From assembly GCA_036277115.1 (NCBI GenBank), contig DASUNM010000015.1, positions 1 through 64,000 on the forward strand: a DNA stretch of 64,000 bases, given 5' to 3'. Shown piece after piece: positions 25,074 to 58,760 of this stretch (the stretch's first letter is position 1; each line of letters begins with the position of its first letter). Below the pieces are notes generated by a model. It saw nothing but the letters and a program-made list of their open reading frames with translations. It did not search any database and was not told the origin of the DNA. The position numbers and the translations under genes are program-made. The stretch comes from Pyrinomonadaceae bacterium. Lineage in GTDB: Bacteria > Acidobacteriota > Blastocatellia > Pyrinomonadales > Pyrinomonadaceae.

Positions 25074-25134
25074 TGTGGCACAGACTTCAGTCTGTGGCTC
25101 TCCCGTTGTCATCACAGGCTACAGCCTGTGCCAC
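25074..25134. repeat. Paired inverted repeat, TGGCACAG family (copy 1)
   Basis: One arm is TGGCACAGACTTCAGTCTGT (from 25076) and the other is CACAGGCTACAGCCTGTGCC (25113-25132). Each is itself a palindrome, and the two are mutually complementary at their outer ends. The element spans the whole gap between ddl and arginase. Other copies lie at 35325-35350 and 58701-58759. Confidence 0.85.
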
Positions 25135-28311: not shown

Positions 28312-28322
28312 GAAACCTTTGG

Positions 28323-28374
28323 TTTAGAGTCGGGCTACTGCCCGAGGGAAGCGGGCGGTCGCCCGCTTCTAAAC
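28323..28374. repeat. Paired inverted repeat, TTTAGAG/CGGGCTACTGCCCG family (copy 2)
   Basis: TTTAGAG and TTCTAAA bound two hairpins, CGGGCTACTGCCCG and GCGGGCGGTCGCCCGC. The order is inverted relative to the copy at 9220-9269, with the same end words. A single hairpin of related sequence acts as the terminator at 38448-38470, and another overlaps a stop codon at 46636-46660. Confidence 0.8.
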
Positions 28375-31912: not shown

Positions 31913-31966
31913 GCGTGCAGCATTCTAACACTTTGGCGTGCGCGGTTGACGGGACTTCTAGAACTT

Positions 31967-32088
31967 CCCTCTCCCTTTGGGAGAGGGTAGGCGTGAGGGC
32001 CTGACGAAGGGAGTAGAAGGAAAAATTTATTCTGTTCGTCGCTATAGCTTCGCTCCCTCACCCAGCCATCTCCCAAAGGGAGAGGGAG
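31967..32088. repeat. TIR element, CCCTCTCCC...GTGAGGG family (copy 1)
   Basis: The left end CCCTCTCCCTTTGGGAGAGG... (from 31967) runs into a GTGAGGG word. The right end, a complement of about 32 bases, runs CCCTCACCC to GGGAGAGGG (32055-32086). Each end is also a hairpin. The core of about 55 bases has no ORF. Elements with the same plan are at 40221-40313 and 49725-49894. Confidence 0.85.
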
Positions 32089-32144
32089 CCGCACTCTAAA
32101 TCTGGTTGAATCATTCTGTTCCGTATCGTAAAGTACGCGGGCGT

Positions 32145-32200
32145 GCGGTACGCACGCGTCTCGCGTGCTAACGATAAGCCGCCAGAGGCGTGCGTACCGC
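32145..32200. repeat. Inverted repeat GCGGTACGCACGC, upstream of nagZ
   Basis: GCGGTACGCACGC (32145-32157) and its exact complement GCGTGCGTACCGC (32188-32200) flank 30 bases. The second arm ends 26 bases before the nagZ start, so it could affect nagZ transcription. Confidence 0.8.
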
Positions 32201-32226
32201 TAGAAACTTTTTAGCCGCTTTCATCC

Positions 32227-33378: not shown

Positions 33379-34969
33379 AACACAGACGACGCGACGCACA
33401 CTGTTCGCGCTGGCATTTTGTCTGACGGCGACGTTAGTGACCTCGACTACGTGCCGGCGTCGCAGCGACAGCTTCGTGATCGTCCTGTCCGACAACATCA
33501 AGACCATCGATCCGATTGGCTCGCCCACCGTGGATGCGGCCAGCGAGCGCGTGCGGGTGCTGATGTTCAACTCACTCGTTAAGAAAAACGATCAGTTTGA
33601 CTACGTTCCCGAGCTGGCGTCGAACATTCAGCGTTCCGAGGACGGCCTGACATTTACCTTCACGCTGCGCGACGGTGTGACATTCCATGACGGCCGGCAG
33701 TTCACTTCGGCTGATGCGAAATACACCGTCGATACTGTTTTGGCGAACCAGTTTGCGAAGTCGGCGAGTTTCTTCGAAGGCGCGGGCGCGAATCGGACGG
33801 GCTACATCAAGAGCGTTGAGGCACCTGATGCGCGCACGCTGGTAATCACGCTGACCAAACCATGGACTGGTCTGCTGCCGAATTTGGTTCCGATTGCCGT
33901 CATTCCAAAGGACAGCTACGAATCACAGAAGACCCATCCGCTCGGCACAGGTCCATTCAAGTTCAAGAGTTACGATCAATCGCAGCAGGTGGTCGATCTC
34001 GAAGCGAATACGAGCTACTGGGACGGCCCTCCGCAAATGGCCACCTTGCGCGCGCGCGTAATCAGCGACTCAAACGCGATGCAGGCCGAGCTGCAAAGCG
34101 GTCGCGTGGATATCGCGCCGCTGCCGACAAGTCTTTCGCCGGACGCGATCAAAGCGCTTGGCTCGAATCCGAACCTGACCGTACATCAATTCACCGGCTC
34201 GAATGTAAACCTGCTCACCTTCAACACGAGCGAAGCTCCACTTAATAACGTAAAGGTGCGACAGGCGATCGCTCATGCCGTCGATCGTGAAGGTCTGATA
34301 CGTGATCTGCTATTGGGTCAGGGCAAGATCGCCCATTCCATTCTGCCCGAATCGTCATGGGCGTACACGCCCGGTCAGACTTACAACTTCGATCCCGCGA
34401 TGGCGAAAAGGCTTCTGGACGAAGCAGGGTTGCGCGATCCGGATGGCGACGGCCCGCAAATGCGCATCAGCAAACCAATTCTCTTTCGTATTTCCGGCAG
34501 CAGCGCGCCGGCCAGGCAATACGCCGGAGTCATTCAAAATTATCTAAAGAACGTCGGCTTGCCCGTTTCGATCGAGGCAACAGAATTCAATGTGATGCTC
34601 GAGTTCATTCGCCGGGGCCAGTTTCAGATGCAATATGGCCAATGGGTGGGCGGCAATCAGGATCCGATCTTCTATCGCGATCTGTTTGCGACGTCAGAGA
34701 TTCCCACGGAAACGCGGGCGTCGCGTAATCGCAGCCGCTACAGTAATGCGGAACTCGATCAGATTCTGACTGAAGCCGCGAACACATACGACCATGAAAA
34801 AGCGAAACCACTGTACGCGCGGGCGCAGGAGATTGTGAGCCGCGACGCGCCCATTCTTCCGCTTTGGTATCAGGCGAACATGGTGATCGCGAAAAAGACC
34901 GTGGGCAACATTAACGTCAACGCGAGCGGCGATTGGGGATTCGTGAAGAATCTAACAGTTCAACGTTAA
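33368..34969 (+). CDS. ABC transporter substrate-binding lipoprotein, family 5 (oligopeptide type)
   Basis: The 533 residues match the SBP_bac_5 family. An N-terminal lipoprotein-like signal ends in TSTTC at about 29. KTIDPIGSPT, FTLRDGVTFHDGRQFTSADA, HPLGTGPFKFKSY and RQAIAHAVDREGLI follow. It should bind peptides or similar solutes in the periplasm for an Opp/Dpp-type importer, but no permease or ATPase for it is in the window. The ATG has GGGAGA upstream and overlaps the nagZ end by 11 bases. Coupling to nagZ suggests capture of murein peptides. Confidence 0.92.
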   Translation: MSRRTQTTRRTLFALAFCLTATLVTSTTCRRRSDSFVIVLSDNIKTIDPIGSPTVDAASERVRVLMFNSLVKKNDQFDYVPELASNIQRSEDGLTFTFTLRDGVTFHDGRQFTSADAKYTVDTVLANQFAKSASFFEGAGANRTGYIKSVEAPDARTLVITLTKPWTGLLPNLVPIAVIPKDSYESQKTHPLGTGPFKFKSYDQSQQVVDLEANTSYWDGPPQMATLRARVISDSNAMQAELQSGRVDIAPLPTSLSPDAIKALGSNPNLTVHQFTGSNVNLLTFNTSEAPLNNVKVRQAIAHAVDREGLIRDLLLGQGKIAHSILPESSWAYTPGQTYNFDPAMAKRLLDEAGLRDPDGDGPQMRISKPILFRISGSSAPARQYAGVIQNYLKNVGLPVSIEATEFNVMLEFIRRGQFQMQYGQWVGGNQDPIFYRDLFATSEIPTETRASRNRSRYSNAELDQILTEAANTYDHEKAKPLYARAQEIVSRDAPILPLWYQANMVIAKKTVGNINVNASGDWGFVKNLTVQR

Positions 34970-35304
34970 GCCTGCTGGTAAGCGTCCATCATCATCTGCA
35001 GCTTGGACTGCATCTCGCTCGAGACTCCTACAAACTCGACGCCCGCGCCGGTAGGGGGCGCGCCTTCCATGACTCGCAACTGATATCGAATGGCGCCTTT
35101 GACGTTAATCGCGCCGGTCGTCTCTCCGCGCAGCCGCAAATGGATTTCATCACCGCGACTCAATTCGCGCTTCGTGGCGAGGAAGCATCCACTCACGCTC
35201 AGGCTGGTTATTTTGTCGTAATACTCGCACTCGGCGCTCCGGCCCCAGTCGGCAAAGAAGTCGACGGTGACCCGTGGATGACTGCGTAGCTCGCTGTAGT
35301 CCAT
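34966..35304 (-). CDS. PilZ domain protein
   Basis: The 112-residue PilZ domain has the RSHPR motif near the start and SLSVSGCF in place of the usual D/NxSxxG, so the two c-di-GMP contact motifs are present with Ser for Asp. The C-terminus is GAGVEFVGVSSEMQSKLQ. ATG 35304 is preferred, because the frame upstream to 35349 is made of the TGGCACAG repeat. Its stop overlaps the convergent peptide-binding protein gene by four bases. It probably acts as a c-di-GMP receptor. The HD-GYP/GGDEF protein at 62484 is a possible enzyme of the same signal. Confidence 0.85.
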   Translation of the reverse strand: MDYSELRSHPRVTVDFFADWGRSAECEYYDKITSLSVSGCFLATKRELSRGDEIHLRLRGETTGAINVKGAIRYQLRVMEGAPPTGAGVEFVGVSSEMQSKLQMMMDAYQQA

Positions 35305-35324
35305 GCTATTTGAGTGCGCCCGTA

Positions 35325-35350
35325 TGGCACAGACTTCAGTCTCTGCCACC
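35325..35350. repeat. TGGCACAG repeat (single arm)
   Basis: TGGCACAGACTTCAGTCTCT and GCCACC form one palindromic arm of the family seen at 25074-25134 and 58701-58759. It lies just upstream of the PilZ start codon. Confidence 0.75.
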
Positions 35351-35369
35351 AGTTTGATGGCACTTTAAC

Positions 35370-35987
35370 CTAGTTTCCCCGTAACGCTACTTGAATTTTG
35401 TCCCACGCGATTGCGCCTTCGCGAACCAGCTTAACTTCAACACCGGCGGCATCAACCACAGAAGACGGCTGATCCGTTTTCGTAGTGCCACCGTCCACAA
35501 TTAAGTCCACACTCTCGCCAAAGTACTTCGCCGCTTCTGCTAAAGATCGCGCGGCCGGCTCGCCGGAAAGGTTAGCACTGGTCGCGGTTAGTGCGCCGCC
35601 GCAGGCCCGCACAAGTGAGCGGACTCCTTCATCATCCGGCAAACGCACGCCGACAGAATTAGTGCCTGCCGTCAGTTCGCTCGGCAATTTGCGGGCGGCT
35701 TTACCGATGATTGTCAGGGCACCCGGCCAGAATTGTTTCGCAAGCTCGTCGAACGTTGCCGAACGTTCTTCAATTAACCGGCCAAGTTGTTCCGCGTCAC
35801 TGATGAGCACGAGAATCGGCTTGTTCCCTTCCCTTCCTTTTAAGTCCTTAACTTTCTGAACTGCAGAAGCGTTGAAAGGGTCGGCGCCCAGGCCATAGAA
35901 GGTATCGGTGCGAAACGCGATGACGCCGCCGCGCGCAATTATCTCGACGACGAGCGATATGTTTTCGCTGTTCTGCGGAAGAATCAC
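35370..35987 (-). CDS. tsaC: L-threonylcarbamoyladenylate synthase (TsaC/YrdC/Sua5 family)
   Basis: The 205-residue YrdC-fold enzyme makes threonylcarbamoyl-AMP from threonine, bicarbonate and ATP for the t6A tRNA modification. It shows GGVIAFRTDTFYGLGADPF, KGREGNKPILVLI, WPGALTIIG, VGVRLPDDE and the SANLSGEPAA segment, in the normal order. It starts at GTG 35987. It is a short form without the Sua5 C-terminal domain. Confidence 0.94.
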   Translation of the reverse strand: MILPQNSENISLVVEIIARGGVIAFRTDTFYGLGADPFNASAVQKVKDLKGREGNKPILVLISDAEQLGRLIEERSATFDELAKQFWPGALTIIGKAARKLPSELTAGTNSVGVRLPDDEGVRSLVRACGGALTATSANLSGEPAARSLAEAAKYFGESVDLIVDGGTTKTDQPSSVVDAAGVEVKLVREGAIAWDKIQVALRGN

Positions 35988-36044
35988 GAGTGTCCCAGGG
36001 TCTGGCCGAATGTCGAACGTTACGGTCCGCGCCGTAGGCGCGAA

Positions 36045-36163
36045 AATGTTTATAGCTCATGGCGCCGCTTAACTAAAACGCACTCGGCGAGGAGCAACGC
36101 CCCTCGCCGAGTAGAAAAACCTAAATGACGATCTGTTTCTATAAATTCGGCTGCTACGGAGCC
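36045..36163. repeat. MITE-like element related to 9607-9751
   Basis: AATGTTTATAGC (36045-36056) repeats the end of the element at 9607. The other end is the degraded TTTCTATAAATTCGG (about 36134-36148), followed by the CGGCTGCTACGGAGCCG palindrome. A terminator-like hairpin (36082-36112) lies within it. The gap 35988-36198 holds no ORF. Confidence 0.6.
36082..36112 (-). terminator. Candidate rho-independent terminator after the O-methyltransferase gene
   Basis: ACTCGGCGAGG (36082-36092) pairs perfectly with CCTCGCCGAGT (36102-36112). Read on the minus strand, GCGTTTTAG follows, giving a short T-tract 87 bases beyond the stop codon. Confidence 0.6.
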
Positions 36164-36198
36164 GTCGAATCCACGTCGCGTCGACACCGGCTCTGGGA

Positions 36199-36855
36199 TT
36201 ATTTGATCTTCACGCCATAGCCGAGCCCGTCTCCAACCGGCAAGACCACTGCGCGTAACTGAGGATGATTGACGAAGTATGGATTGAATTCGCGCAGAGC
36301 CTCGGTAGAAGTTTTATAATCGTTTAGTTCGTTGTGGCCCGCGACGCGTCCGCCCCAAAGCAAGTTGTCGCAGATGACAACACCGCCCGTGCGCAGCTTG
36401 GGGAGGCTGAGATCGAGATAGCCTCGATACTCTTCTTTCACCGCGTCGATGAACACGAGATCGAATGTCTCGTTAAGTTGCGGAATGACGTCGAGAGCGT
36501 ACCCGATTTCGATCTGCACTTGCTCGCCAATACCTGCACGGGTGAAATAGCCTTTCGCGGCCGTGATCATTTCATCGCTCGGGTCGATCGTGACAACGCG
36601 CCCGTCGCCGCCCATGCCGCGTAAAAGATGGATGACGGAATAGCCAATCGCCATCCCACATTCGAGTGCTCGTTTTGCATTGATGGCGCGGGCAGTGAGT
36701 TCGAGAAACAAAGCCACTTCGCGATCAGCAATCGGCACGCGATGCTCCGCGGCATAACGCTCCATCTCAGCAAGCAGATCATCGCTCGCCGGCAGGATGC
36801 CGTCGAGATATTCCGCCTGCTCACGTTGCAGAATAGCGTCGAGTTTAGCTTTCAA
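36199..36855 (-). CDS. Class I SAM-dependent O-methyltransferase (COMT-like)
   Basis: The 218-residue protein has the Methyltransf_3 pattern: LALFLELTARAINAKRALECG, AIGYSVIHLL, VVTIDPSDEM, FDLVFIDAVKEEYRGYL with the metal-binding Asp, and GGVVICDNLLWGGRV. Relatives methylate catechol-type phenols using Mg, or modify tRNA (TrmR). The start codon is TTG 36855, overlapping the stop of the response regulator gene, so translation is probably coupled. The substrate is unknown. Confidence 0.9.
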   Translation of the reverse strand: MKAKLDAILQREQAEYLDGILPASDDLLAEMERYAAEHRVPIADREVALFLELTARAINAKRALECGMAIGYSVIHLLRGMGGDGRVVTIDPSDEMITAAKGYFTRAGIGEQVQIEIGYALDVIPQLNETFDLVFIDAVKEEYRGYLDLSLPKLRTGGVVICDNLLWGGRVAGHNELNDYKTSTEALREFNPYFVNHPQLRAVVLPVGDGLGYGVKIK

Positions 36856-38303
36856 TTGTCGTTCTTTTCCTGCGGGCCTTCACCCACTGCGACATAGCGT
36901 CGTCCCAGTCCCAGCTCTCTTAACTTATGCTGCAGAGACTGGCGATGCATGCCCAAAACGGAGGCGGCGCGGGTGACGTTGCCACCTGACTCTTCTAAAC
37001 ACCTGGCAATGTAACGGCGCTCGAACTCCCGTCGATCATCACGAAAATCTGATGTGTAAGGAACGACCAGTCCGCCGTTCAACGAAGCATCATTTGATTG
37101 CGCTGCTTTGGCGGTGATTCCCGTCTCGATCGCGTTTACTTCATCGCCATCAGACATGATTGCGGCGCGCTCAATCGCGTTGCGCAACTCGCGCACGTTG
37201 CCGGGCCAATCGTACTCCACCAATTTTTTCAAAGCGTCACGCCCAATTGGTCGCTCCGGCAAACCGTGACGTTCGGCCGCGTCGCGGGCGAAAGCCGCCG
37301 CCAGCAAGGCAATATCTTCACGCCGCTCGCGCAGTGGAGCGATGTCGATCGTCACCACGCGCAAACGATAGAAGAGATCGGCGCGGAAGTTTCCCTTTTC
37401 GATCTCTTCTTCCAAAGCTCGATGCGTCGCGCTCACAATCCGCACGTCGACCGGAATGGATTCATCGCCGCCGAGCCGTTCAATGCGTCTTTCTTCCAGC
37501 GCGCGCAGAAGCTTCGCCTGCACATTGGCGCTCATGTCGCCGATTTCGTCCAGGAACAACGTGCCGCCGTTAGCCTGCTCGAATTTGCCCTTGCGACGCG
37601 TGGCAGCGCCCGTAAAAGCGCCCTTTTCGTGGCCAAAAAGCTCAGATTCAATCAGTTCCGACGGCAGGGCCGCGCAGTTCACCGCCACGAATGCTCCGCC
37701 GCTGCGCGTGCTGCTCCGGTCGTGCAACTCGCGCGCAACCAGTTCCTTGCCGGTCCCCGATTCGCCTCGAACGAGCACCGTTGCGTCCGTGTCGGCGACC
37801 TTCTCGATCATCCCACGCACGCGCTGCATCGCTTCTGAGTTACCCAGCAAAGCACCGCGTTGCGAACTCTCGATTTCAATTCGCCGACGCAGCGACTGGT
37901 TCTCGCGACGGAGCTGAATATTCTCGAAAGCGTTCTTGACGACGAGGCGCAGATCGTCCACCTCGAATGGCTTTGAGAGATAGTCGTACGCGCCGCTCTT
38001 CACGGCTTCAACCGCCAGCCGTTCGGAGCCGTGGGCCGTGATGATGATCACGTGTGGCGCTTCAGCTTTCGCAGCTTCGGCGTCGCTGTGAATCTGTCTT
38101 AAGAAATCCAGGCCGCTCAATCCCGGCAGATTCACATCCAGCAGCAACAAATCGAATTTCGACGTCCGCATCAAAGCGTGCGCTGACTCAGCGCTCTCAG
38201 CTTCGGCAATGTCGCAGCCAGCCGTCTGCAGTGCGCGGCGCATGCCATAGCGCGCGGCTTCTTCGTCGTCAACAATCAACAAACGCAAATTATTCATACT
38301 CAT
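36852..38303 (-). CDS. Sigma-54-dependent response regulator (NtrC family)
   Basis: The 483-residue product has a receiver domain (about 5-125; DD pair, phospho-Asp in LLLDVNLPG, Lys in YLSKPF), an AAA+ domain (Walker A GESGTGKE, sigma-54 contact loop GAFTGA, Walker B GGTLFLDEIGD) and a Fis-type helix-turn-helix (GNVTRAASVLGMHRQSLQHK). It activates RpoN promoters when phosphorylated. ATG 38303 has GGAG at 6 bases and is preferred to GTG 38315. A membrane histidine kinase gene lies upstream at 39348-41411, the likely partner, with one secreted protein gene between. Confidence 0.95.
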   Translation of the reverse strand: MSMNNLRLLIVDDEEAARYGMRRALQTAGCDIAEAESAESAHALMRTSKFDLLLLDVNLPGLSGLDFLRQIHSDAEAAKAEAPHVIIITAHGSERLAVEAVKSGAYDYLSKPFEVDDLRLVVKNAFENIQLRRENQSLRRRIEIESSQRGALLGNSEAMQRVRGMIEKVADTDATVLVRGESGTGKELVARELHDRSSTRSGGAFVAVNCAALPSELIESELFGHEKGAFTGAATRRKGKFEQANGGTLFLDEIGDMSANVQAKLLRALEERRIERLGGDESIPVDVRIVSATHRALEEEIEKGNFRADLFYRLRVVTIDIAPLRERREDIALLAAAFARDAAERHGLPERPIGRDALKKLVEYDWPGNVRELRNAIERAAIMSDGDEVNAIETGITAKAAQSNDASLNGGLVVPYTSDFRDDRREFERRYIARCLEESGGNVTRAASVLGMHRQSLQHKLRELGLGRRYVAVGEGPQEKNDN

Positions 38304-38442
38304 TCCGGACTCCACAGTTTAATACAGAGCGGGCGAGGACGCTCGCGCCACCTGAGTGTTCCGGCTTTGACCTTGCGCATTCTGTGCCAAAACGTGAAGG
38401 AGGACTTAGTGGAGGGTGCCGCCCGCCCAAATGCGGGAAATA

Positions 38443-38470
38443 AAAAGGAGGCGGGCCAGTAGCCCGCCTC
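38443..38470 (-). terminator. Rho-independent terminator made from a repeat hairpin
   Basis: GAGGCGGGC (38448-38456) pairs with GCCCGCCTC (38462-38470). On the minus strand it is followed at once by CTTTTTATTT. It lies 27 bases past the stop at 38497. The stem matches the GGGCTACTGGCCC repeat family, so a repeat appears to serve as terminator. Confidence 0.85.
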
Positions 38471-38496
38471 GATCAAACCGTAATAGTGACAGTTGC

Positions 38497-39159
38497 TTAA
38501 TTCCCGGAGCGCTTCGCTGAGATCACTACGACGATCGCGTCCCCTGACGGGCCCAGATTGAGAGTCCCGGCGATCACGGGAGAGCCTTCTCGCATACTGA
38601 TGTCCGTGATCAAGCCGACCGACTCGTAGTTAACTACTGGGAAAGTGGTGCTGGAGGTGGATGCATTCGTGATGCTTGATTGCGCAGTGACGATCGGAAC
38701 CTTTGAACCGAATCTGAAGTCGGTCATGCGCACCAGTTCGTTGCCCCGCTCATCCTTGATCCACCGCACTACTGCCCCGAAATGATTAAAGCTCGGGTGG
38801 CCAATAGAGGTCGACACCGGAAGCAGGAATGGGCCGCCCACCCAACTCACTGCCAACCGTTCATTATTCGTGACTCGATTGAGAAACGTGCCGGCCAAAC
38901 TATAGTGCTTAAAGGCCATCGATTCCCGCAGTGTCTTCACTATCGGCTCAAGAATCGGCGGAGTTTTTCCCTCCGGCATCTCCCGGTTCGTGCCCAGAAT
39001 GAGATAGAGGTGAGTATCGAAATTGGTAACATCGGTTGAGGGACGCGTGGCGCGAGCTGGCTGAGTTGACTCCTGACAAACCGCGGCCGGAACCATGAAC
39101 ATGGCTGCCGCACATAGAACGGCAAGACACACGACCACACGAATTCTTATCGAGATCAT
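38497..39159 (-). CDS. Secreted protein of unknown function
   Basis: The 220-residue product has a signal peptide (CLAVLCAAAMFMVPAAVCQ). Its mature part contains THLYLILGTNREM, VKTLRESMAFKHYSLAGTFLNRV and a last segment GSPVIAGTLNLGPSGDAIVVVI. The two-lobed alpha/beta then all-beta pattern somewhat resembles secretin N-domains, but I cannot assign it. AGGAGA precedes the ATG. It lies between the histidine kinase and response regulator genes and ends at its own terminator, so it may be the periplasmic third member of the system. Confidence 0.7.
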   Translation of the reverse strand: MISIRIRVVVCLAVLCAAAMFMVPAAVCQESTQPARATRPSTDVTNFDTHLYLILGTNREMPEGKTPPILEPIVKTLRESMAFKHYSLAGTFLNRVTNNERLAVSWVGGPFLLPVSTSIGHPSFNHFGAVVRWIKDERGNELVRMTDFRFGSKVPIVTAQSSITNASTSSTTFPVVNYESVGLITDISMREGSPVIAGTLNLGPSGDAIVVVISAKRSGN

Positions 39160-39300
39160 TATCGGTTCTCCTTTGTTAGTAGATCAGGTTGCCGATTGCT
39201 CGTCGGCAGGATGAGTGCTCGTCCGTAGGTGTCACGCTGTGGGCATGCAAAAGTTCCAGAGTGTCGGAGCGCGGACGGCGAGGGATTGCAACTTATCAGA

Positions 39301-39340
39301 TTTCAAATCTGAGATCTGAGATCTGAGATTGAGATCTCAA
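39301..39340. repeat. GATCTGAGATCT direct and inverted repeat
   Basis: The stretch repeats ATCTGAG three times (TCAAATCTGAGATCTGAG, then ATCTGAGATT) and ends GAGATCTCAA. AATCTGAGATCT and GAGATCTCA can pair. It is in the 188-base gap between the kinase gene and the secreted protein gene; the rest of the gap shows nothing I can name. Confidence 0.6.
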
Positions 39341-39347
39341 TAGCCGG

Positions 39348-41411
39348 TCAGGCTTCTGACAGTGACACGCGCAGCTCAAAACGCGCGCCTTCGCCGTTGC
39401 TCGAAGGAGCCAGCAAGGCCGAACCACCCGCCTCCTGCATCCGCTTGCGAACGATGGCCAGACCGAGCCCCGTACCTCTCTGCCGCGTCGTGAAAAACGG
39501 TTGCCAAACCTTTTCACGCATCGCTTCCGGAATGCCGGGGCCGGTATCGCTCACAGTAAACAAAAGCGACTGAGCGTCGATATCGCACTCGACTTTCACC
39601 ATGCCTCCGCGCGGCGTGGCCTGCAAACCATTGAGAAGCAAATTGGAAAGCGCGTCACGCACCGCCGAGGTTTGCACACCGTCAAGCTTCCCGTCACAAC
39701 GCGCTACGGATCGAAGGGTCACGCCCTTCTCCTCAGCTTCAGCGCGAAACAGGCTGACCACGGTGCCGACGATCTCCGCGGCGCTGCTCGGCGCAGAGGC
39801 CGGTGTCTGAGTTCGCGCAAAGCTGAGTAGTTGCGTGACTGTGTTGTTCAGGCGATCGGTTTCGCCGACGATTAGACTCAGGTCGCGCGCGTGTTGAGTC
39901 TTGAGCGCTTCGTCCTCGCTCATGACCTGGGCGATTGACTTGATCGCCGATAGCGGATTCTTCACCTCGTGCGCGACCGTCGCCGCCATTTGGCCCAGCG
40001 CAGCGAGACGTTCACCCTCGGCCAGCTTCCGTTCCAGCCGCACGTTCTCTTCCACCAGCCGCCAATCGTCCAGGGCGACCGCGATTTGACCGGCGAGCAC
40101 CTCAAGTACCGCGCGCACGTCGGAAGTTAACGCGCCGGGTGACGCTTCAACCCGCAACGCGCCGATGGTTTGATCCTCGCGCAGCAACGGGTAGGAACTA
40201 AAGAAGGCTTTGTCCTCATCGCCCCTCTCCGCTTGCGGGGAGAAGTTGGGGGTGGGGTCGGCAGGCCGCACCTCCTCTCCCCCTGCCCCCCTCTCCGCAT
40301 GCGGAGAGGGGGAAACGGCTGTGGATTCCCTTGAACTTAATACGATCTTCACCTTCCGCAACGGCAGGGCGCTCGCGATTTGGGTCTCAATAAAACTGAT
40401 CAGTTCAGGCAACTCTCGGAACTGTCCGACTTGCGCGCCCACGCCTGTCATGACATCGCGATACAACGCCGTCTCGCGCTCAAACAGCGAGCGAAACCAT
40501 CTTTCGAGAGCGCCACGCATCGGCGCCGCTAAAAAGGTCAGTCCGAGGATCAGGATGGCTTCGATGACGCCGGCGCGTACGCCGTAACGCGCGTTGGTCC
40601 ACTCACCAATTCGGCGGATGCCGTAAACATAGACGGCCAGGACTACCGCCGCGAAGCTCGCAACCACGAGGCTCTCTTTGATGATCAGTTCAAGGAACCG
40701 ATAACGATAAATGTAGTAAGCGAGGAGCGCCGAAGGCAGCAGCGAGCCAAGATTCGCAAACGTCTGAAGGTACAGCCCGGCGGTCGTTCCGCGTCCCATC
40801 CCGAGTCCAAGCGCCGACAGAATCAGCACCGCGATGCCGAAGAACGAAAATGCGAGCGTGCGCAGGATGCGGCGCTCGCTGGCGGAATCCGCACGGCGCG
40901 CCACCAGTAACTCAGTGATCGCACAGACGCTTAGCGAATAAACGACCCACAGCGCGAACGGCAAAACGAATGAAGACGTTTTCGCGATCATCGGCTGATA
41001 TTCGCCCGACCAGATACGCGGAATGGCGAGAACGAGAAAGATACATGGAAGATAAGACAAGACCGCGCGGATGCGTTCGATGCGATTGAGCGATCTGCCG
41101 TGCGCCCCGGCCCATAGATGCAGATGAACGTGAAGCAGGACCGAATAGCACAGCGTGATGCTGATTACCGCGATCGTGTTCGCGACGCGCAGCGGGATGA
41201 TCCAATCGGCATGTGGCAGTCCAAGCAGACTGCGCAGAGTAACGATCAGATTTCCGCCGTGCCAGCCAACCATGCAGCCCGCCAGCACCAGCAGCAGACG
41301 CTCGACTGTCACCAGGCCGACGCGCTGGCGCAGGAGCACATACCCGAGCCACAGCGGCAGCACGGCGCCCAGGCTGTAACCAATTAGCTGGAGGGCCTCG
41401 AGCAGGGACAT
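39348..41411 (-). CDS. Multi-pass membrane sensor histidine kinase with an in-frame repeat insertion
   Basis: The 687-residue product has about eight membrane helices in residues 5-300, a GAF-like domain (about 310-450), a HisKA domain with phospho-His481 in VAHEVKNPLSAIKS, and an HATPase domain (N-box LSNLLLNGLQA, G1 SDTGPGIPE, G2 GTGLGLAIV). It resembles PrsK-type kinases. Residues about 366-398 (SPSPHAERG, then NFSPQAERG) are encoded by a REP-like repeat pair and sit in a GAF loop. Transcription direction and position suggest it phosphorylates the NtrC-like regulator at 36852-38303. No clear ribosome site is visible before the ATG. Confidence 0.93.
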   Translation of the reverse strand: MSLLEALQLIGYSLGAVLPLWLGYVLLRQRVGLVTVERLLLVLAGCMVGWHGGNLIVTLRSLLGLPHADWIIPLRVANTIAVISITLCYSVLLHVHLHLWAGAHGRSLNRIERIRAVLSYLPCIFLVLAIPRIWSGEYQPMIAKTSSFVLPFALWVVYSLSVCAITELLVARRADSASERRILRTLAFSFFGIAVLILSALGLGMGRGTTAGLYLQTFANLGSLLPSALLAYYIYRYRFLELIIKESLVVASFAAVVLAVYVYGIRRIGEWTNARYGVRAGVIEAILILGLTFLAAPMRGALERWFRSLFERETALYRDVMTGVGAQVGQFRELPELISFIETQIASALPLRKVKIVLSSRESTAVSPSPHAERGAGGEEVRPADPTPNFSPQAERGDEDKAFFSSYPLLREDQTIGALRVEASPGALTSDVRAVLEVLAGQIAVALDDWRLVEENVRLERKLAEGERLAALGQMAATVAHEVKNPLSAIKSIAQVMSEDEALKTQHARDLSLIVGETDRLNNTVTQLLSFARTQTPASAPSSAAEIVGTVVSLFRAEAEEKGVTLRSVARCDGKLDGVQTSAVRDALSNLLLNGLQATPRGGMVKVECDIDAQSLLFTVSDTGPGIPEAMREKVWQPFFTTRQRGTGLGLAIVRKRMQEAGGSALLAPSSNGEGARFELRVSLSEA
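40221..40313. repeat. TIR element inside the histidine kinase gene (copy 2 of CCCTCTCC family)
   Basis: CGCCCCTCTCCGCTTGCGGG starts the left hairpin. A perfect 26-base palindrome centred between 40300 and 40301 (CCCCCTCTCCGCA and TGCGGAGAGGGGG) forms the right hairpin. The ends are inverted relative to each other, as in the copies at 31967 and 49725. The insertion keeps the host frame open. Confidence 0.88.
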
Positions 41412-41502
41412 CGCGGTGTGAGGATACTACTTGAACGGCCGAGTCAGAACCTTTTGGCGCTACGGTTGGGCTGATCCGTGCGCAGAAGCCGGCACTTTCA
41501 AA

Positions 41503-43221
41503 CTATTCCCATCGTTGAGTCGAGACCAATCGAATTGGGGGCCCGGCGAGAATCGCCTGCGCCAACTTCATCTGCGCCATTAACCGAATCTCAGATCTCT
41601 CGAACTGGCCAGCCACATTCACGGCGCGATCAAAATCGCACCAGGCAAAATAACTCGCGTTCTGTGACAACATTGTCAGGAGACCGCCGACGGTGCCCTG
41701 ATTACTCATGTTCCATTCACCATCGCGAAGATTGTGGCTGTCATAGCCATCAAGCTTAACCGCTGCCGCAACCAGCTCGTTTAGTTTCGGCATTAGCGCT
41801 TGCATCTTGTCCAAACCACGATCACTTTTTTCCAAACAATACATCATCGCCAGACCGATCTCCCCTGCAGTCTGTTCCTTACCAGCTTTCATCGTGTCGA
41901 CGATTTCGCTCGCCTGATCCAGAAGTTTTAAAGCGGCCTTTCTGTCTTTTGTCCCCACGAGGTTAGCCAAGTACACCAGGAACTCGATTCGCTGCCTCGT
42001 GTGCGGAATAGTACTGAGGAAGGTCTGCGCTTCCGCGAGCTTCTCAGCGGTCATCGAACGCCAAGCCTGGGCGCGATCGAGCCGTTCCAGCACCCGTTTA
42101 CGTGATTCGGAATCGGTGATGTAGTCGGTTGCAATCTTCCGGGCTCGATCGATATCGCCCAATGACTCGGCCTTACTTATTGCGTGCCAATAAATCCATT
42201 CCGCCATCTGAGGGTGCTTCCGGGCAACGGCGAGGAGCTCGTCAACAGTTCCGTTCTGGATAGTCTCCTGGACCTGCTCATAGGCCTCCGGGTCGCGCTG
42301 CGATTCGGGCGCCTCGGGCGCCCATTGTTTTAATTCGGCCGCTCGCGATGGATCGATCTTTTCCATCTCAGGCAGAAAGGACCCAAGGTACGCGCAGAAA
42401 GACTCGTCAGAACCCTGCCCAGCTTTATCACAACGGTGCTCGAATGCAGTGGTAATGAATAACTTGATTAGCTCTCGAAAGGTCGCGTCATCAACGACCG
42501 GTGGCTTGAATGACCTGGCCAAGCTTTGGGCAAAATAGAAGGCCGGAGAGAATCGTCCGAGACCGACACTCGTCAGTTTCGAAACGATTTCTTTATATAG
42601 AGTCAGCGCCGTCTCTCGATCTTTTCTTTGTAATTTTCTGAGCAGTGACAAAAGGTCGTGGGAAAAACCGCGAGACAGCGATTTGCGGCCAAGCTTGAGC
42701 GCCATCTCAGGATTCTCCGCGGCGATCTGACTTGCCAGTCGAATTTCAAGATTGCGCTCCAGCTCGGCAAGCTCATGCGACTTCGAATTACTCGGAGCTG
42801 GTTCGGTTCCTTTCAAGAACGCGAGCGCCAGGTCGGCATCGTGCTTTGCAATCCGCTCAACCGTATCCGTTCGTAACTTAAGGAACACCATACGTGTCTG
42901 CACCGCGGTTTGCTGGTCTTCGTCGCCGTCTACCGCTTGCAGCCCAAGGTTGATGTCGCTCTGGACGGAATCCAGGAGCCTTCGCGCGCGCTGCTCGTCG
43001 TGTTTCCAAAGCGACGCGGCGACGTTAGCGCCAAGCCGGGCACGGTTCTCCACCGACTGTAGCGTGCCGATTTGATCGCCAACAGTTTTGAGGAGATCAA
43101 TGGCCTTTCTTTGCAGTTCAAGATCGGCGGTCCGCCGGTTTTCGGGCTCCTGAGCGTGGGCGCGCCCGGTGATTAGCAAGAGCGCCAGCAGGACGATGTG
43201 GGTCAGTCTTGCGCGGGACAT
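41503..43221 (-). CDS. Secreted alpha-helical repeat protein of unknown function
   Basis: The 572-residue product has a signal peptide (IVLLALLLITGRAHAQ). It is then almost entirely helical, with repeating segments such as RARRLLDSVQSDINLG, RKAIDLLKTVGDQIG and RKAALKLLDQASEIVD, spaced like TPR/HEAT-type solenoids but without a clean consensus. Similar long helical secreted proteins are common in Acidobacteriota, and their role is unknown. GAGGGA lies before the ATG. It is one of a run of secreted protein genes on this strand. Confidence 0.7.
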   Translation of the reverse strand: MSRARLTHIVLLALLLITGRAHAQEPENRRTADLELQRKAIDLLKTVGDQIGTLQSVENRARLGANVAASLWKHDEQRARRLLDSVQSDINLGLQAVDGDEDQQTAVQTRMVFLKLRTDTVERIAKHDADLALAFLKGTEPAPSNSKSHELAELERNLEIRLASQIAAENPEMALKLGRKSLSRGFSHDLLSLLRKLQRKDRETALTLYKEIVSKLTSVGLGRFSPAFYFAQSLARSFKPPVVDDATFRELIKLFITTAFEHRCDKAGQGSDESFCAYLGSFLPEMEKIDPSRAAELKQWAPEAPESQRDPEAYEQVQETIQNGTVDELLAVARKHPQMAEWIYWHAISKAESLGDIDRARKIATDYITDSESRKRVLERLDRAQAWRSMTAEKLAEAQTFLSTIPHTRQRIEFLVYLANLVGTKDRKAALKLLDQASEIVDTMKAGKEQTAGEIGLAMMYCLEKSDRGLDKMQALMPKLNELVAAAVKLDGYDSHNLRDGEWNMSNQGTVGGLLTMLSQNASYFAWCDFDRAVNVAGQFERSEIRLMAQMKLAQAILAGPPIRLVSTQRWE

Positions 43222-43276
43222 TTGTTTCCCTCTGGCTGGCGCGGCCTGCCTTCACGGACAACCGAGGGCCGCTCAG

Positions 43277-43624
43277 CTATCTAATTGAAACCGTCAGCGT
43301 GAAGTTTGTCGCGCGGCGTGCCGTGTTGACGACCGAAAGCAGATGGTCGCCGCCGGTCATCTCGACACTAAAGCTCTTGCCGCTCGCCGTACCGGCATTC
43401 ACGACGACGGCGCCATTGCCGGAGGTGATTTCGATCGTCATCACCTGGCCGGCGCGACCGTCGATGACGTATTCGGTGTAGCCGTTGGCGCCGATTGGGC
43501 CACGCACCGTAGCGGAACTCTTTCCGCGCTGAAAGCGGATGCGCTTCTGCGCCAGAATATCGGCGCTCGATACAACCATCACTAACAACAACGCGGCAAC
43601 TTTGAAAGCTTTTCTTCTCTGCAT
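43277..43624 (-). CDS. Small secreted beta-sandwich protein
   Basis: ATG 43624 gives a 115-residue product with a signal peptide (VAALLLVMVVSSADILAQ) and one domain. In that domain IRFQRGKSSATVRGPIG and YVIDGRAGQVMTIEI match a beta domain seen in PliG-type lysozyme inhibitors and PPC-like modules. A role in binding or protection is a guess. A longer frame to 43687 would run into the S9 peptidase gene upstream. That gene ends 33 bases before this start, in the same direction. Confidence 0.7.
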   Translation of the reverse strand: MQRRKAFKVAALLLVMVVSSADILAQKRIRFQRGKSSATVRGPIGANGYTEYVIDGRAGQVMTIEITSGNGAVVVNAGTASGKSFSVEMTGGDHLLSVVNTARRATNFTLTVSIR

Positions 43625-43656
43625 CAACCTGTGCCCTTCCCTTTGTTCACCCAAAC

Positions 43657-45645
43657 TTATTTCTTGCCAATGTATTTGTCGAACCATTCAAGATTCGCCT
43701 GCATTGCTGCCACTTGCATCTTCGGCTCGTTCGGTCCATGCGGCTGGCGCGGAAGAACGAGCATGCGCGTCGGCACCCCCTGCGCCTTCAGAGCATTGTA
43801 GAACTCGTAGCCCTGTGAGATTGGGACGCGGACGTCGGCCTCGCCGTGCTGAATCATCGTCGGCGTCTTCACGCCTTTCACATTGAACATCGCCGAGTGC
43901 TTCTGATACGCCTCGATGATTTCCCATGACTGGCCGCCAAAATAATCCGGCACGAACGAAGCAATGTCTGTCGTTCCATTAAAGCTCATCAGGTTTGTTA
44001 CCGGGGCGCCCGCGGAAGCAGCCTTGAAGCGTTGCGTTTGCGTGACGATCCATGAAGTCATGAATCCGCCATAGCTCCAGCCCATCACGCCCAACCGTTC
44101 TGGATCAGCGACGCCCATCGCGATGACCTTGTCCACGCCCGTCATTAAATCCTGATAATCGGCGCCGCCCCAATCTTTCGCGTTCGCGCGCCGGAATTCA
44201 GTTCCGTAACCGGACGAGCCGCGCGGATTCGGACGGAGAATGGCATAACCTTTCGCAGAGAAAGTCGCGAGCGGATAGGCTCCGCGTCCACCGAGGAAGC
44301 TTTGCTGAAACACGCCGGCCGGTCCGCCGTGGACATTTAGAATGAGTGGAACCTTCTGTCCTGCTTGATAGCCGACCGGGTAAGTAAGCAGGCCTTCAAT
44401 CTCGCGGCCATCAGCCGACTTCCAGGTCAACACTTCAGTCTTTCCAACTGCCGGCAGCTTCATCGCTGAGTGCGCTTGGCTGACCTGTACCGGTGCGAAA
44501 GTCGTCACCGGCGCGACGAACACCTCGGACGGTGTGTCGGAAGTTTGCCGCACGAAGGCGAACATCGTTCCTGATTGGTTCAAGTTAAATGCGCCGTAAA
44601 CGGCCGTGCTGCTTTTGATTTCCTCAATCTTGTTCGCGGCGACGTCGATCGCGTAGAGCTGCGTTCCCGTGCCCTTCGCTTCGCTGAAGTAGATGCGCTT
44701 GCCGTCCGCCGACCAGCCGGCCATGTTTGGCTGACCGTCGTGCGACGCGGCGAGCGCTTTCGGCTGTCCTCCGGCAACTGAATAGACCTGAATGAGACCA
44801 CTCTGCGCCCAACGCGGTGGATTGTCGCTGATCGTGAGCGCGATCCATTTGCCGTCAGGCGAAAACTGCGCAGAATCTTCAGCCGCGGGCGTGTTCACGA
44901 ACACTGTGGTCTTGCCGCTCGCGACTTCAACGATTGAGACATCTGAGGTTGTCCAGTCGTTCGCGATCGGCGACTTCACGTGACTAAAGACGATGCGACT
45001 TCCATCCGGCGCCCAATCGAATCCGCCGACATGGTAATTATCAGTCGTTAGCTTCTTTGGCTCGCGTTTGCCGTTCGCGTCCTTCTGGACGGGAATCACG
45101 TACAGCCGGGCCAGCTTCAGGTTCTCATCAACCCAGCGAAAGTCGTTGCGCCCCTTGTCGTTCTTCTCTTCGTCCTCGGCTTTCGCATCGGCCATCGTGA
45201 AAGCGAACCACTTTCCGTCCGGTGACCATTCGAAATTCGACACCGAAGTTTTCACGTCCGTGATCTGCTCGGCCTCGCCACCGCGCAAAGGCAGCACGTA
45301 GAGATTGTTCTTATTGTCCTTGCGATTCGAAGTGAAGGCAATCCAGTTTCCGTCCGGCGACCACTTCGGATTTGTTGAAGACTTGTCGTTAAAGGTGAGC
45401 TGGAAGTTCTCCTTGCCGTCCGTGCTCGCCAGCCAAATCTGCGTCACAAACTCACTCTTGTCCGCAGTCATCACAGCGTCGTTGATCGTGTAAACGACCC
45501 GCCGCCCATCCGGCGACACGCGCGGAGTCCCAACCCCGCGGGTCTTTACCTGAAGCTCAGGCGTCCAGGTGGTTGGCGCATTTTGCGCGGTGATGGTAAT
45601 GGCGATGAACAGAAGTGTGGCGCAGGTCTTCGCAAGGCTTTTCAT
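43657..45645 (-). CDS. S9 family peptidase (acylaminoacyl/dipeptidyl peptidase type), secreted
   Basis: The 662-residue product has a signal peptide and a seven-bladed WD40-like propeller built of SPDGRR/SPDGNWIAFTSNR repeats (about 35-390). The C-terminal alpha/beta hydrolase has the nucleophile in GWSYGGFM, the Asp in HGEADVRVP and the His in RQPHGPNEP, so the triad is intact. It should cut short peptides in the periplasm. GGAGAATCAA precedes the ATG. It is followed by the small secreted protein gene at 43277. Confidence 0.95.
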   Translation of the reverse strand: MKSLAKTCATLLFIAITITAQNAPTTWTPELQVKTRGVGTPRVSPDGRRVVYTINDAVMTADKSEFVTQIWLASTDGKENFQLTFNDKSSTNPKWSPDGNWIAFTSNRKDNKNNLYVLPLRGGEAEQITDVKTSVSNFEWSPDGKWFAFTMADAKAEDEEKNDKGRNDFRWVDENLKLARLYVIPVQKDANGKREPKKLTTDNYHVGGFDWAPDGSRIVFSHVKSPIANDWTTSDVSIVEVASGKTTVFVNTPAAEDSAQFSPDGKWIALTISDNPPRWAQSGLIQVYSVAGGQPKALAASHDGQPNMAGWSADGKRIYFSEAKGTGTQLYAIDVAANKIEEIKSSTAVYGAFNLNQSGTMFAFVRQTSDTPSEVFVAPVTTFAPVQVSQAHSAMKLPAVGKTEVLTWKSADGREIEGLLTYPVGYQAGQKVPLILNVHGGPAGVFQQSFLGGRGAYPLATFSAKGYAILRPNPRGSSGYGTEFRRANAKDWGGADYQDLMTGVDKVIAMGVADPERLGVMGWSYGGFMTSWIVTQTQRFKAASAGAPVTNLMSFNGTTDIASFVPDYFGGQSWEIIEAYQKHSAMFNVKGVKTPTMIQHGEADVRVPISQGYEFYNALKAQGVPTRMLVLPRQPHGPNEPKMQVAAMQANLEWFDKYIGKK

Positions 45646-45707
45646 TTGATTCTCCTGAGAAACTCTGAATTATGGCTTCGCGGGGCGAAACACTATCGCG
45701 TCCTGAA

Positions 45708-46604
45708 CTATCTAGTCAATTCCACTTCGGCAGCGATGTGGCCGAAGCTGGCCCACTGGATGCCGTGCACGATTTGCCGAAAGGTATTTACGGCCTCGGT
45801 GGGCCGGCCGTTGTAGAGAAACCAGTTACCTACCCCATAGCCCACCGTGGCGTTGCTGAGCGTGTTGGGTGTTTGGTTTGAGTCGCTAAGCAGGTCTGAA
45901 GGTTTTAGCTTGCCTTGATAAAGTTTTATGAGCTGATAGTAATCCGCATTTTCGATCACTTCGAGGTTGTCGGTGATCGGCGCAATCGATGCGGCGGCTT
46001 CTTTCTCCCGGCCCAGACGCCGCAGAGTCATGTAAAGCCAATGCGTCGTCGCGACCATCATGTCAGGGTTCTTTGAAACCTTTTCCGCTTCACGATAGGC
46101 CTTGTGCGCGCTTCCGAAGTCGCCTTTCAGATAATGCGCCAGGCCGAGGTGATACCAGATGTTCGACTGTAGGGTGCTGGTGGGAATGTTTCTGGCGTTC
46201 GGCATGCCGTCGGGCTCGACTTCGTCAGGTTTGCCTTTGACGAGCTTAGCGGCCTTCTCGAAATCTTTAATGGCATCATCGAAACAGCGAAGCGTGATGA
46301 AGCGATGCCCGCGATGTCGATACAGCCGCGCATCTTTCGGATATTTCGAAATTGCGTCGGTGTAAATCGCGATCGATTCTTTGTATCTGCCGAGATACGC
46401 GGTCCGCCTGCCTAACCAGATAAAATTGTCCGCGCTGGGCTCTTTTTGGAAATCGGCACGGGCGGTGGTCAGCTTGGTTTCAAAGTCCCTGCGCGCTTCC
46501 CGGGAAAGTTTTGGCTGGATTTCGCCGGCGGCTTGGAGACATTTGTTTTGCGCGACCGTGGTTGAGGCAAAAAGAAACAGGAAGGCGGCAAGAAGTACTC
46601 TCAT
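45708..46604 (-). CDS. Secreted TPR-repeat protein
   Basis: The 298-residue product has a signal peptide (AAFLFLFASTTVAQ). Several TPR units follow: FIWLGRRTAYLGRYKESIAIYTDA, LYRHRGHRFITLRCFDDAIKDFEKA and WYHLGLAHYLKGDFGSAHKAYREA. It ends in a shorter helical segment. It is probably a periplasmic protein-interaction scaffold with no enzyme motif. No clear Shine-Dalgarno site precedes the ATG. Confidence 0.85.
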   Translation of the reverse strand: MRVLLAAFLFLFASTTVAQNKCLQAAGEIQPKLSREARRDFETKLTTARADFQKEPSADNFIWLGRRTAYLGRYKESIAIYTDAISKYPKDARLYRHRGHRFITLRCFDDAIKDFEKAAKLVKGKPDEVEPDGMPNARNIPTSTLQSNIWYHLGLAHYLKGDFGSAHKAYREAEKVSKNPDMMVATTHWLYMTLRRLGREKEAAASIAPITDNLEVIENADYYQLIKLYQGKLKPSDLLSDSNQTPNTLSNATVGYGVGNWFLYNGRPTEAVNTFRQIVHGIQWASFGHIAAEVELTR

Positions 46605-46635
46605 CGGATTGATTACGAGGATTCCCTTTCAACTG

Positions 46636-46660
46636 TAGAGCGGGCGACCGCGCGCTTCTA
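46636..46660. repeat. Repeat hairpin overlapping a stop codon
   Basis: TAGAGCGGGCGACC and GCGCGCTTCTA are the outer words of a single arm of the TTTAGAG/CGGGC family. The stop codon TAG of the gene at 46658-47185 lies within its edge. Confidence 0.55.
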
Positions 46661-47185
46661 TTTCGAGACCACTCTGATAAGTTCCGCTCCGAAGGCTTCG
46701 ATTCTGGCTCTCTGATCCTTTTGCCCCTGGTTCATTACGCCCACGACGGGACGATAGCCTCTGGTACGGTTAATTAATTTCGTGCGGAAGACGACTTCCT
46801 TACCGACTAATTGGGCAGACCAATTGCACCCGCTCTTCTCGTTACCACACCAGATTGACAAGTCTTTAAGCTCGAGAAAACTACCATCGCTCAAAGCCAC
46901 TCGGATCGGTTGCATTTCGAGATCGAGGTGCTTAGCGACGCCGTTATCATGAAACTCTTTGAGCGTGCCTGACCATTCAACCTCTTGACTAAAAATCCGA
47001 TTAAATTCCCAGAAGTTACCCTTACGCTCAAGTGCGCCTTGTTTGGCATAGGGTGCTATTGCTTCCCCAAACTTCACCCAATCTGTACGCCAGGGTTCTT
47101 GTTCCTGGCCGAAGCTGCTTTGTCCCGCGAACAGGCAGCCTGCTACGAGGAGCAAAACTAATACCTTTGAAAATCGTTTTCCCAT
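46658..47185 (-). CDS. Secreted protein of unknown function
   Basis: The 175-residue product has a signal peptide with a Cys near its end (VLLLVAGCLFAGQSSFGQ), so a lipoprotein is possible but the lipobox is poor. The mature part is beta-rich with Trp and Cys residues (LSIWCGNEKSGCNWSAQL), which suggests one disulfide. GAGGGA precedes the ATG. It is unassigned. Confidence 0.65.
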   Translation of the reverse strand: MGKRFSKVLVLLLVAGCLFAGQSSFGQEQEPWRTDWVKFGEAIAPYAKQGALERKGNFWEFNRIFSQEVEWSGTLKEFHDNGVAKHLDLEMQPIRVALSDGSFLELKDLSIWCGNEKSGCNWSAQLVGKEVVFRTKLINRTRGYRPVVGVMNQGQKDQRARIEAFGAELIRVVSK

Positions 47186-47254
47186 CTTCCCTCTAAATTG
47201 ACTCAGACATTTCCTGCGAACGCTGAGGTCCCGTGGCGCCGCGAATTCAATCCA

Positions 47255-47923
47255 CTACCAACTTGTACACTGGCCGTCGCGCAATTCGCTAATCGCCTCG
47301 GGGCGTTTTGAGTCCGCCGCTTGCCATCCCGGCCGCTGCCAAGAGGACCCATCGGTGTACTCGACGCGGTTGATGAGCGCCCGCTGCTTTCGAGGTTCGG
47401 CGGCTGAGGCTTCAGCGCTCGCGTTGATAGGATCTGCCGGGGACCTCGCCAGCAACGAACTGAGATTTCTTGGCTTTAATACAACGGCGCAAAAGAAGAG
47501 GCGACTCGAAATCGTCGAAGTGTTGGACGCGTCTCTGAGTTGGTACTCCCAGAGAATAGTCTTTATCTTTTTCGCGCCGGCGTTCCTGACCCGCAGCCGG
47601 TATTCATATCTCGACATCAGTGAAGACGCGCCGGCGGGACGACTTATGACTTGGCCACTGGGCGTACGAAGCTCAATCGAGCGATTCCTAATCGTCATTG
47701 GATCTTTTCTTTCCTTTCGGTTCCCGTTTGTGAGGTCATCAATGACGATGAGACCCGGCGGTGTGGGTGCGGGTTTTGGTCCGGGCGCGGACGGCCGGGG
47801 CGTCATGGGATACATGAACACCTCAAGATCCACGACTTCGACTGGATCGGATTGGCTATTCTGCTGCACTTGCGGCCGAGCATCGAACGAGCCCAGAAGT
47901 AATATGATTAACAGCGCGACCAT
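47255..47923 (-). CDS. Secreted protein of unknown function
   Basis: The 222-residue product has a short signal peptide (MVALLIILLLGSFDARPQ) and a Pro-rich linker. Its domain contains SIELRTPSGQVISRPAG, YEYRLRVRNAGAKKIKTILWEY and a later disulfide-capable Cys pair region, and it appears all-beta, like an Ig-like fold. AGGTGA precedes the ATG. The gene is common-looking for this phylum but unnamed. Confidence 0.65.
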   Translation of the reverse strand: MVALLIILLLGSFDARPQVQQNSQSDPVEVVDLEVFMYPMTPRPSAPGPKPAPTPPGLIVIDDLTNGNRKERKDPMTIRNRSIELRTPSGQVISRPAGASSLMSRYEYRLRVRNAGAKKIKTILWEYQLRDASNTSTISSRLFFCAVVLKPRNLSSLLARSPADPINASAEASAAEPRKQRALINRVEYTDGSSWQRPGWQAADSKRPEAISELRDGQCTSW

Positions 47924-48011
47924 TAATTCACCTCACATTTGGTTCGCGGGAGAGCACAGAATTCAGCCATCGTAATGAGCCGGTGGCACTATGCACGAAC
48001 GCGCCAGGCTC

Positions 48012-49565: not shown

Positions 49566-49724
49566 TAAACCCTCTATTGAAGAGCAGGCTATCTGCCTGA
49601 TCAGATTATGTCGAGCATCGAACAGGCTAATCCCTGTCCTAAGTCCTAGATGCACGGCCCGGTCTTAATTGTTGCCGAACGGGAAGAAACTGACAAGAAG
49701 GTTTGTGCAGATGTGGGCGGCACT

Positions 49725-49894
49725 CCCTCTCCCACTGGAGAGGGCTGGGGTGAGGGTGCGAAGCTTAAGGCGGTAAGAAATGAACCTTTATTCCCAATCT
49801 GTCGTGAGGCGCAACCTCACGTCAGAGAGCGTGGATAATTTTTGTTATAGCGCTAACTTCGTCCCTCACCCTGACCTCTTCCAGTGGGAGAGGG
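49725..49894. repeat. TIR element, CCCTCTCCC...GTGAGGG family (copy 3)
   Basis: The left end (49725-49756) begins CCCTCTCCCACTGGAGAGGG and ends GTGAGGG. The right end (49863-49894) is its near-perfect complement, beginning CCCTCACCC. The 106-base core has no ORF. It lies in the 334-base gap between the OmpA gene and a small membrane gene, and the rest of that gap shows no gene. Confidence 0.9.
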
Positions 49895-49899
49895 AAAGA

Positions 49900-50073
49900 T
49901 TAAAGTCGGCGTTGCTCGCGCTCGTACTGCCGTGTTCGCAGGTGCTGCACAAATTGAACTGCGATGAAACCTAAGCCGGTCAATAAAAGCGTGTGGACGA
50001 ATCCACCCTTGTGCATCACGAACTTAAGGACAAACCAAGTGATGAGAAAAAACGATCCGATGTAATAGAGCAT
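49900..50073 (-). CDS. Small membrane protein, Lmo0937-like
   Basis: The ORF codes for 57 residues: MLYYIGSFFLITWFVLKFVM, a short HKGGFVHTLL turn, a second helix LTGLGFIAVQFVQ and a basic tail RTRQYEREQRR. Two membrane helices around a Gly/His turn fit the short Lmo0937/DUF5670-type membrane family. It begins 54 bases downstream of the gene at 50128 on the same strand and its stop lies six bases from the TIR element, so the element is inserted just after the gene. No strong ribosome site is visible. Confidence 0.65.
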   Translation of the reverse strand: MLYYIGSFFLITWFVLKFVMHKGGFVHTLLLTGLGFIAVQFVQHLRTRQYEREQRRL

Positions 50074-50127
50074 GGTGGAGATGCTGGCACCCGCCGGCCG
50101 AGCAAGAGGCGCATTGTAATTGGAGAG

Positions 50128-58686: not shown

Positions 58687-58700
58687 AAAAGCGTCCTTCG

Positions 58701-58759: not shown

Positions 58760-58760
58760 A

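Follow-up and report, generated by a model that had tools for sequence, protein, structure and literature searches.

A sensor histidine kinase gene in a 64,000-nucleotide stretch of a Pyrinomonadaceae bacterium genome (contig DASUNM010000015.1; hereafter the window) contains an in-frame copy of a repeat that recurs across the same genome, within genes as well as between them. We interpret this element, with a probability of roughly 0.87, as a lineage-specific, non-autonomous palindromic repeat that has spread through the genome and whose intragenic copies have been filtered to those lying in frame within tolerant loops.

An in-frame palindromic element in a sensor kinase gene

Pfam assigns HisKA and HATPase_c domains to the kinase, together with a weak GAF region, and the NCBIfam comparison places it near AtoS/ZraS-type kinases. 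Its open reading frame is intact, with coding-type codon usage on either side of the element, and alignment with relatives confirmed the presence of the H box (VAHEVKNP), the N box, the G boxes and FFTT (F box), so the view of the initial annotation that the catalytic boxes are kept was upheld. Judging from the neighbourhood, the NtrC/AtoC-type regulator encoded close to the kinase gene is likely its partner (Table 1).

The kinase ORF contains two palindromes arranged as an inverted pair and reads through them without a stop as SPSPHAERGAGGEEVRPADPTPNFSPQAERG; the minus-strand translation of the element is VSPSPHAERGAGGEEVRPADPTPNFSPQAERG. The covariance model R1, constructed from the genome's own copies, assigned the kinase copy 87.6 bits (E = 6.6e-12), this copy itself being among the 27 training sequences of the model. 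Its fold energy was 4.8-5.2 SD below that of shuffled sequences. An Rfam search of window positions 31000-50500 gave no match.

Table 1. Coordinates of the features in the window, and genes hosting intragenic copies of the element. Hosts were identified by NCBIfam and Pfam.
Feature	Position	Strand	Description and basis
Sensor histidine kinase gene (twelfth intragenic host)	39348..41411	-	687 aa; element at residues ~366-397; ORF, Pfam, NCBIfam, orthologues
NtrC/AtoC-type sigma-54 response regulator	36852..38315	-	Close to kinase gene; Pfam, NCBIfam
Element, 95 bp	40221..40315	+	Inverted pair of triplex-type (PIT/TM) palindromic motifs; BLASTN family, covariance model, alignment
Half A hairpin	40222..40242	+	Slightly degenerate, 8 bp with 1 mismatch; triads 6/8; inverted repeat and triplex-mirror test
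Half A putative third strand, G-rich (GGGGGTGGGG)	40248..40257	+	Sequence, triplex-mirror test
Half B putative third strand (GGGGGAGAGG, minus strand)	40274..40283	-	Exact stem mirror; triads 9/9
Half B perfect hairpin (CCCCCTCTCCGCA/TGCGGAGAGGGGG)	40287..40312	-	Inverted repeat
Intergenic inverted pair, sister subfamily	31966..32088		Classic TM motifs; triads 8/9 and 8/9
Intergenic inverted pair, sister subfamily	49724..49895		Classic TM motifs; triads 8/8 and 7/9
Arginyl-tRNA synthetase (ArgRS)			Single copy in genome; linker longer than in relatives
Mpl			Clean empty site: seven relatives without the stretch, otherwise aligned within a residue or two
SelB			Congeners without the stretch: clean insertion
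TruB			Longer here than in relatives
Mfd			Longer here than in relatives
PolX			Linker longer here than in relatives
VWA protein			Longer here than in relatives
NHEJ-type DNA ligase			Site in variable linker; orthologue comparison less clear
AddA/RecB-like helicase-nuclease			Site in variable linker; orthologue comparison less clear
RyR/TPR-S/cyclase protein			Without orthologue in the comparison set
FAD-domain gene with apparent Hint/intein-like region and DUF559	C23:1578.8k		Carries element

Copies of the element in the genome and in related genomes

A BLASTN search of the genome itself (4.85 Mb, 30 contigs) with a 126-bp query region retrieved about 40 further copies (best E = 7.7e-21), and these, together with the covariance-model score, indicate that the kinase element is not a chance structure. 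R1 placed the family at about 50 distinct sites. The alignment of the copies spans 90-95 bp, with the consensus CCCCTCCCCGC-NN-GCGGGGAGGGG-TTA-GGGGTGGGG-spacer-CCTCTCCCCCTAACCCCCTCTCCGC-NN-GCGGAGAGGGGG; the element is thus made of imperfect inverted halves of about 40 bp, i.e. terminal inverted repeats as in a MITE. In two further genes (C21:448285 and C11:177937), the C-terminus runs into the element, giving repeat-encoded tails that end in SPSPQAGRAWGGVAQPPTSPPNPLSACGDGAKPD in one case and in FPSPSGRGRG in a HemL-like protein.

BLASTN of the element against 19 relatives at E 1e-5 returned no match. Within the family, R1 found weaker relatives of the element in all congeners and strong copies only in the genome G014, two of which (C35:58.4-58.9k) lie in the orthologue of the Hint-like gene that carries the element here too; horizontal transfer is possible. 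A near-duplicate of the flank of this Hint/FAD-domain gene was observed at C24:19.7k. Screening related genomes for the repeat in coding genes, as the initial annotation had proposed, revealed distant relatives of the element in frame within genes of G001, G002, G004 and G014. Among these, a sister-type element lies in frame in one gene of G001 and G004, which by eye we take to be FeoB-like, apparently at the same site; this suggests either an old common insertion or repeated insertion.

Intragenic copies keep the reading frame

Copies were called intragenic when both flanks were coding in one frame, as judged by a score derived from the codon usage of long ORFs. Twelve copies, about a quarter of those in the genome, lie inside coding ORFs by this measure (Table 1), which calls for a change in the earlier assumption that repeats of this sort normally avoid genes. 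All 12 are in frame and free of stops. The chance of this outcome is about 2e-9 in a simple calculation that allows one third for length and takes 3.4 of 6 frames as open; random phase being so improbable, copies that disrupted genes have presumably been removed by selection. Among the remaining 42 copies, no clear gene disruption was found: three are flanked on either side by coding sequence whose frames do not agree, but two of these proved to involve two separate genes each, and one is short and ambiguous.

The empty site is clearest in Mpl, where relatives read GYEASHIE directly followed by MPDCVIVGN and the protein encoded here reads GYKPAHLY, the insert FSPLRERR..LAVRG, and then IPDCVIVGN. 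The ArgRS with its insert scores above the NCBIfam curated cut-off and, as it is present in a single copy, this essential enzyme presumably functions despite the insert. Seven or eight of the intragenic copies are read in the frame containing SPSPHAERGLGGEV and NPTPNPSPQAGRG; the others use additional open frames, which lie on the element's opposite strand. Copies inside genes show no excess of stop-free frames (3.5 vs 3.4 open frames), so the element appears generally permissive, with nothing pointing to a special coding design. The intragenic copies score higher with the model than other copies do (median 90 vs 79 bits, p = 0.004); they are therefore nearer the consensus, which is consistent with recent insertion.

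In the VWA protein, the loop holds other repeat-like peptides in G005, G014 and G071 (GTGVPPVTHAQDAHAT; VGQAFLPVLPLQEKRTGRNACPT; HAQDAHATLHAQDAHAT). These may derive from repeats, and suggest further palindromic repeat families read in frame.

The kinase loop in relatives and in the structure model

Among twenty-odd orthologues of the kinase, the GAF loop is hypervariable, ranging from 0 to about 100 residues. In the orthologue of G006 (about 70% identity), VTIVL runs straight into DGDEDLSQ with about 33 residues fewer, and the GDED motif located just after the element in the window's kinase is also present. The corresponding site in G001, G002, G004 and the outgroups is occupied by about 30 native residues unrelated to the element; relative to these proteins, the loop has therefore been replaced or refilled, with little net gain. 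Most likely, the loop first became shorter in a common ancestor of G006 and the window species and then received the element; direct replacement of the native loop by the element is also possible.

The AlphaFold model of the kinase, which was computed from eight input sequences and is of modest overall quality (mean pLDDT 65.5), shows residues 360-401 as coil with pLDDT of about 27-33 between strands 353-358 and 405-411. The insert is accordingly predicted to form a disordered loop within a GAF-like domain.

The proposed insertion in the kinase is based on the identity of the element and on the empty site in G006. These two lines of evidence, with the disordered loop of the model and the catalytic boxes, bear out the initial annotation in placing a REP-like pair in frame within a loop of the GAF region of an otherwise intact kinase. 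It had also expected most relatives to show a gap of about 33 residues, whereas this was found only in G006, three of the four congeners and the outgroups carrying native residues. The gain of some 33 residues in a loop accordingly holds against G006, and the loop is disordered in the model, but there is little net gain against the other relatives.

The element resembles the triplex motif

PIT/TM motifs comprise a perfect or near-perfect hairpin (stem 6-15 bp, loop 1-6 nt) and a third strand that mirrors the purine arm after a short linker, and the element contains both. Across the 94 half-elements of this genome, the mean triad match between third strand and purine arm was 0.88, compared with 0.65 for shuffled third strands, and 68 of the 94 had triads of at least 8/9. 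By its sequence, the family is a GC-clamped variant of the PIT/TM motif and not a classic REP.

A match between the kinase element and the intergenic elements at 31967-32088 and 49725-49894 had been noted at the outset. The architecture and the CCCTCTCC/GGAGAGGG core are common to all three, but the arms and spacer of the intergenic elements differ and R1 does not match them; they belong to a sister subfamily. The intergenic elements match TM_ECO of Escherichia coli nearly letter for letter. Of the classic TM motifs in this genome, one of 20 half-sites is intragenic, a number too small for formal comparison.

Two other kinds of repeat were observed in the window. The dispersed palindromic repeat TGGCACAGACTTCAGTCTGTG occurs at 25075-25142, 35325-35346 and 58700-58767, partly as inverted pairs, and a perfect inverted copy of 24 nt (TCGGGCAGTAGCCCGACTCTAAAC) at 9246-9269 and 28322-28345 likely represents a further family.

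Possible mobility of the element

The genome contains nine Y1_Tnp transposase genes, none of which is closely flanked by the element, and the element consensus lacks a GTAG or CGTC tag at the palindrome base. On these two grounds, a REP/REPIN mobilised by RAYT was rejected. Nor did the copies show target-site duplications of at least 6 bp, and the evidence for mobility is therefore indirect. Duplications of 4-mers at the element ends occurred in 11 of 36 cases, against 5.9 by shuffling with a shuffled maximum of 12.

Proposed origin and fate of the intragenic copies

In the reading that we favour, the element would have been copied into new sites, genic as well as intergenic, and copies that broke genes would have been lost. 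Survival within a gene would need a net length that is a multiple of three, an open frame in phase and an insertion-tolerant loop or linker, all of which the kinase copy has. Its insert would be translated into a 32-residue disordered loop rich in Pro, Gly and charged residues between two strands of the GAF-like domain, with the catalytic core undisturbed, and is most likely nearly neutral. An assembly artefact was rejected, since the sequences on either side of the insert correspond to a single orthologous gene in relatives.

The hypervariability of the GAF loop in length and sequence could be taken to mean that the kinase loop is native low-complexity sequence merely resembling the repeat, a reading that we regard as practically negligible given that the DNA matches, over its full length, a family with about 50 copies across the genome, which is also read in more than one frame in eleven unrelated genes. 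It is very improbable, too, that the element is bypassed by ribosome hopping, as are the mitochondrial byp elements, or spliced, so that the kinase protein would lack it. The predicted mRNA hairpin is certainly very stable (-65 kcal/mol, z -5.2) and one copy lies within an essential gene, but frame and stops would then be irrelevant, whereas every intragenic copy respects both; the lack of an Rfam match speaks in the same direction.

Other alternatives accept the insertion and differ on its effect. Positive selection for triplex-forming repeats as modulators of loop length or expression would fit the association of TM motifs with local genome instability in E. coli (PMC4666352) and the different repeat-like peptides in the VWA loop of other relatives. 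We consider such adaptive inserts improbable, because the hosts are functionally unrelated, orthologues in related species lack the inserts, and the sites are tolerant loops or linkers for which neutrality suffices. That the insert has damaged or retuned the kinase, leaving a decaying gene or altered signal sensing, is unlikely but deserves some weight, as the GAF region is possibly sensory and a guanylate kinase of Rickettsia bearing an RPE (a palindromic repeat discussed below) is still active with changed substrate affinity (reviewed in PMC2229807). Against it stand the intact ORF with coding codon usage on both flanks, the conserved catalytic boxes and the natural range of loop lengths.

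With the repeat in twelve proteins and clean empty sites in relatives of the same genus, this genome is a tractable system for asking by what means such repeats spread, how large a fraction of insertions is purged by selection and whether mobile repeats account for part of the loop-length variation in bacteria. It also carries a warning for annotation, since SPSPHAERG-like peptides derive from the repeat. More tentatively, and with more doubt than conviction, triplex-type and other palindromic repeats may be a general and recurrent source of new loops in bacterial proteins, with unrelated families independently colonising the same tolerant loops. The cases behind this idea are the VWA gene in four genomes and TruB, which is affected in this genome and, according to published work, in Rickettsia and Stenotrophomonas. 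If it were true, much of the loop-length variation among acidobacterial orthologues would be passing or domesticated selfish DNA.

Comparison with known repeat systems

Rickettsia provides the best-known examples of selfish DNA lying in frame within protein genes, with scattered REP cases besides. The RPEs of Rickettsia are palindromic repeats inserted in frame in genes (Ogata et al. 2000, reviewed in PMC2229807 and PMC10969869). Like them (RPEs measure about 100-150 bp), the present element is palindromic, has an open frame, and lies in frame in many unrelated conserved genes while being absent from orthologues; TruB carries an insert in both systems (PMC3733652). Unlike RPEs, it consists of two triplex motifs in inverted orientation and occurs in an acidobacterium, whose genome measures 4.8 Mb, and sequence homology to RPE families is unlikely given the taxon and the type of sequence. 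REP dimers of the GTAG/CGTC type have likewise been described as in-frame inserts in various bacteria, where they affect DNA repair genes, tRNA synthetases, TruB and DNA ligase (PMC3733652). Those dimers code for 20-30 residues and their host list overlaps with ours, but the element has no such tag and no closely flanking tyrosine transposase was found.

In E. coli, TM_ECO has the form CCCTCTCCC-loop-GGGAGAGGG-TTA/CCG-GGGTGAGGG (Holder et al. 2015, PMC4666352, building on Hoyne et al.); triplex formation has been demonstrated, and the motif is reported to be always intergenic, with no link to known mobile elements (PMC4666352). The element shares with TM_ECO a hairpin with a mirror-symmetric G-rich third strand, a TTA-type second loop and occurrence in inverted pairs. 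It differs in its GC-clamped stem of 11-12 bp (CCCCTCCCCGC-NN-GCGGGGAGGGG) and in the fixed pair of 90-95 bp, and triplex formation is a prediction in its case. The location differs as well: a triplex-type repeat described as strictly intergenic in E. coli sits here in frame within twelve proteins of an acidobacterium. In the freely readable, as distinct from the subscription, literature we found no report of the PIT/TM family inside genes. The element is therefore best described, as far as sequence comparison goes, as a PIT/TM variant with RPE-like insertion behaviour, and the new part would be that this motif family behaves in this way.
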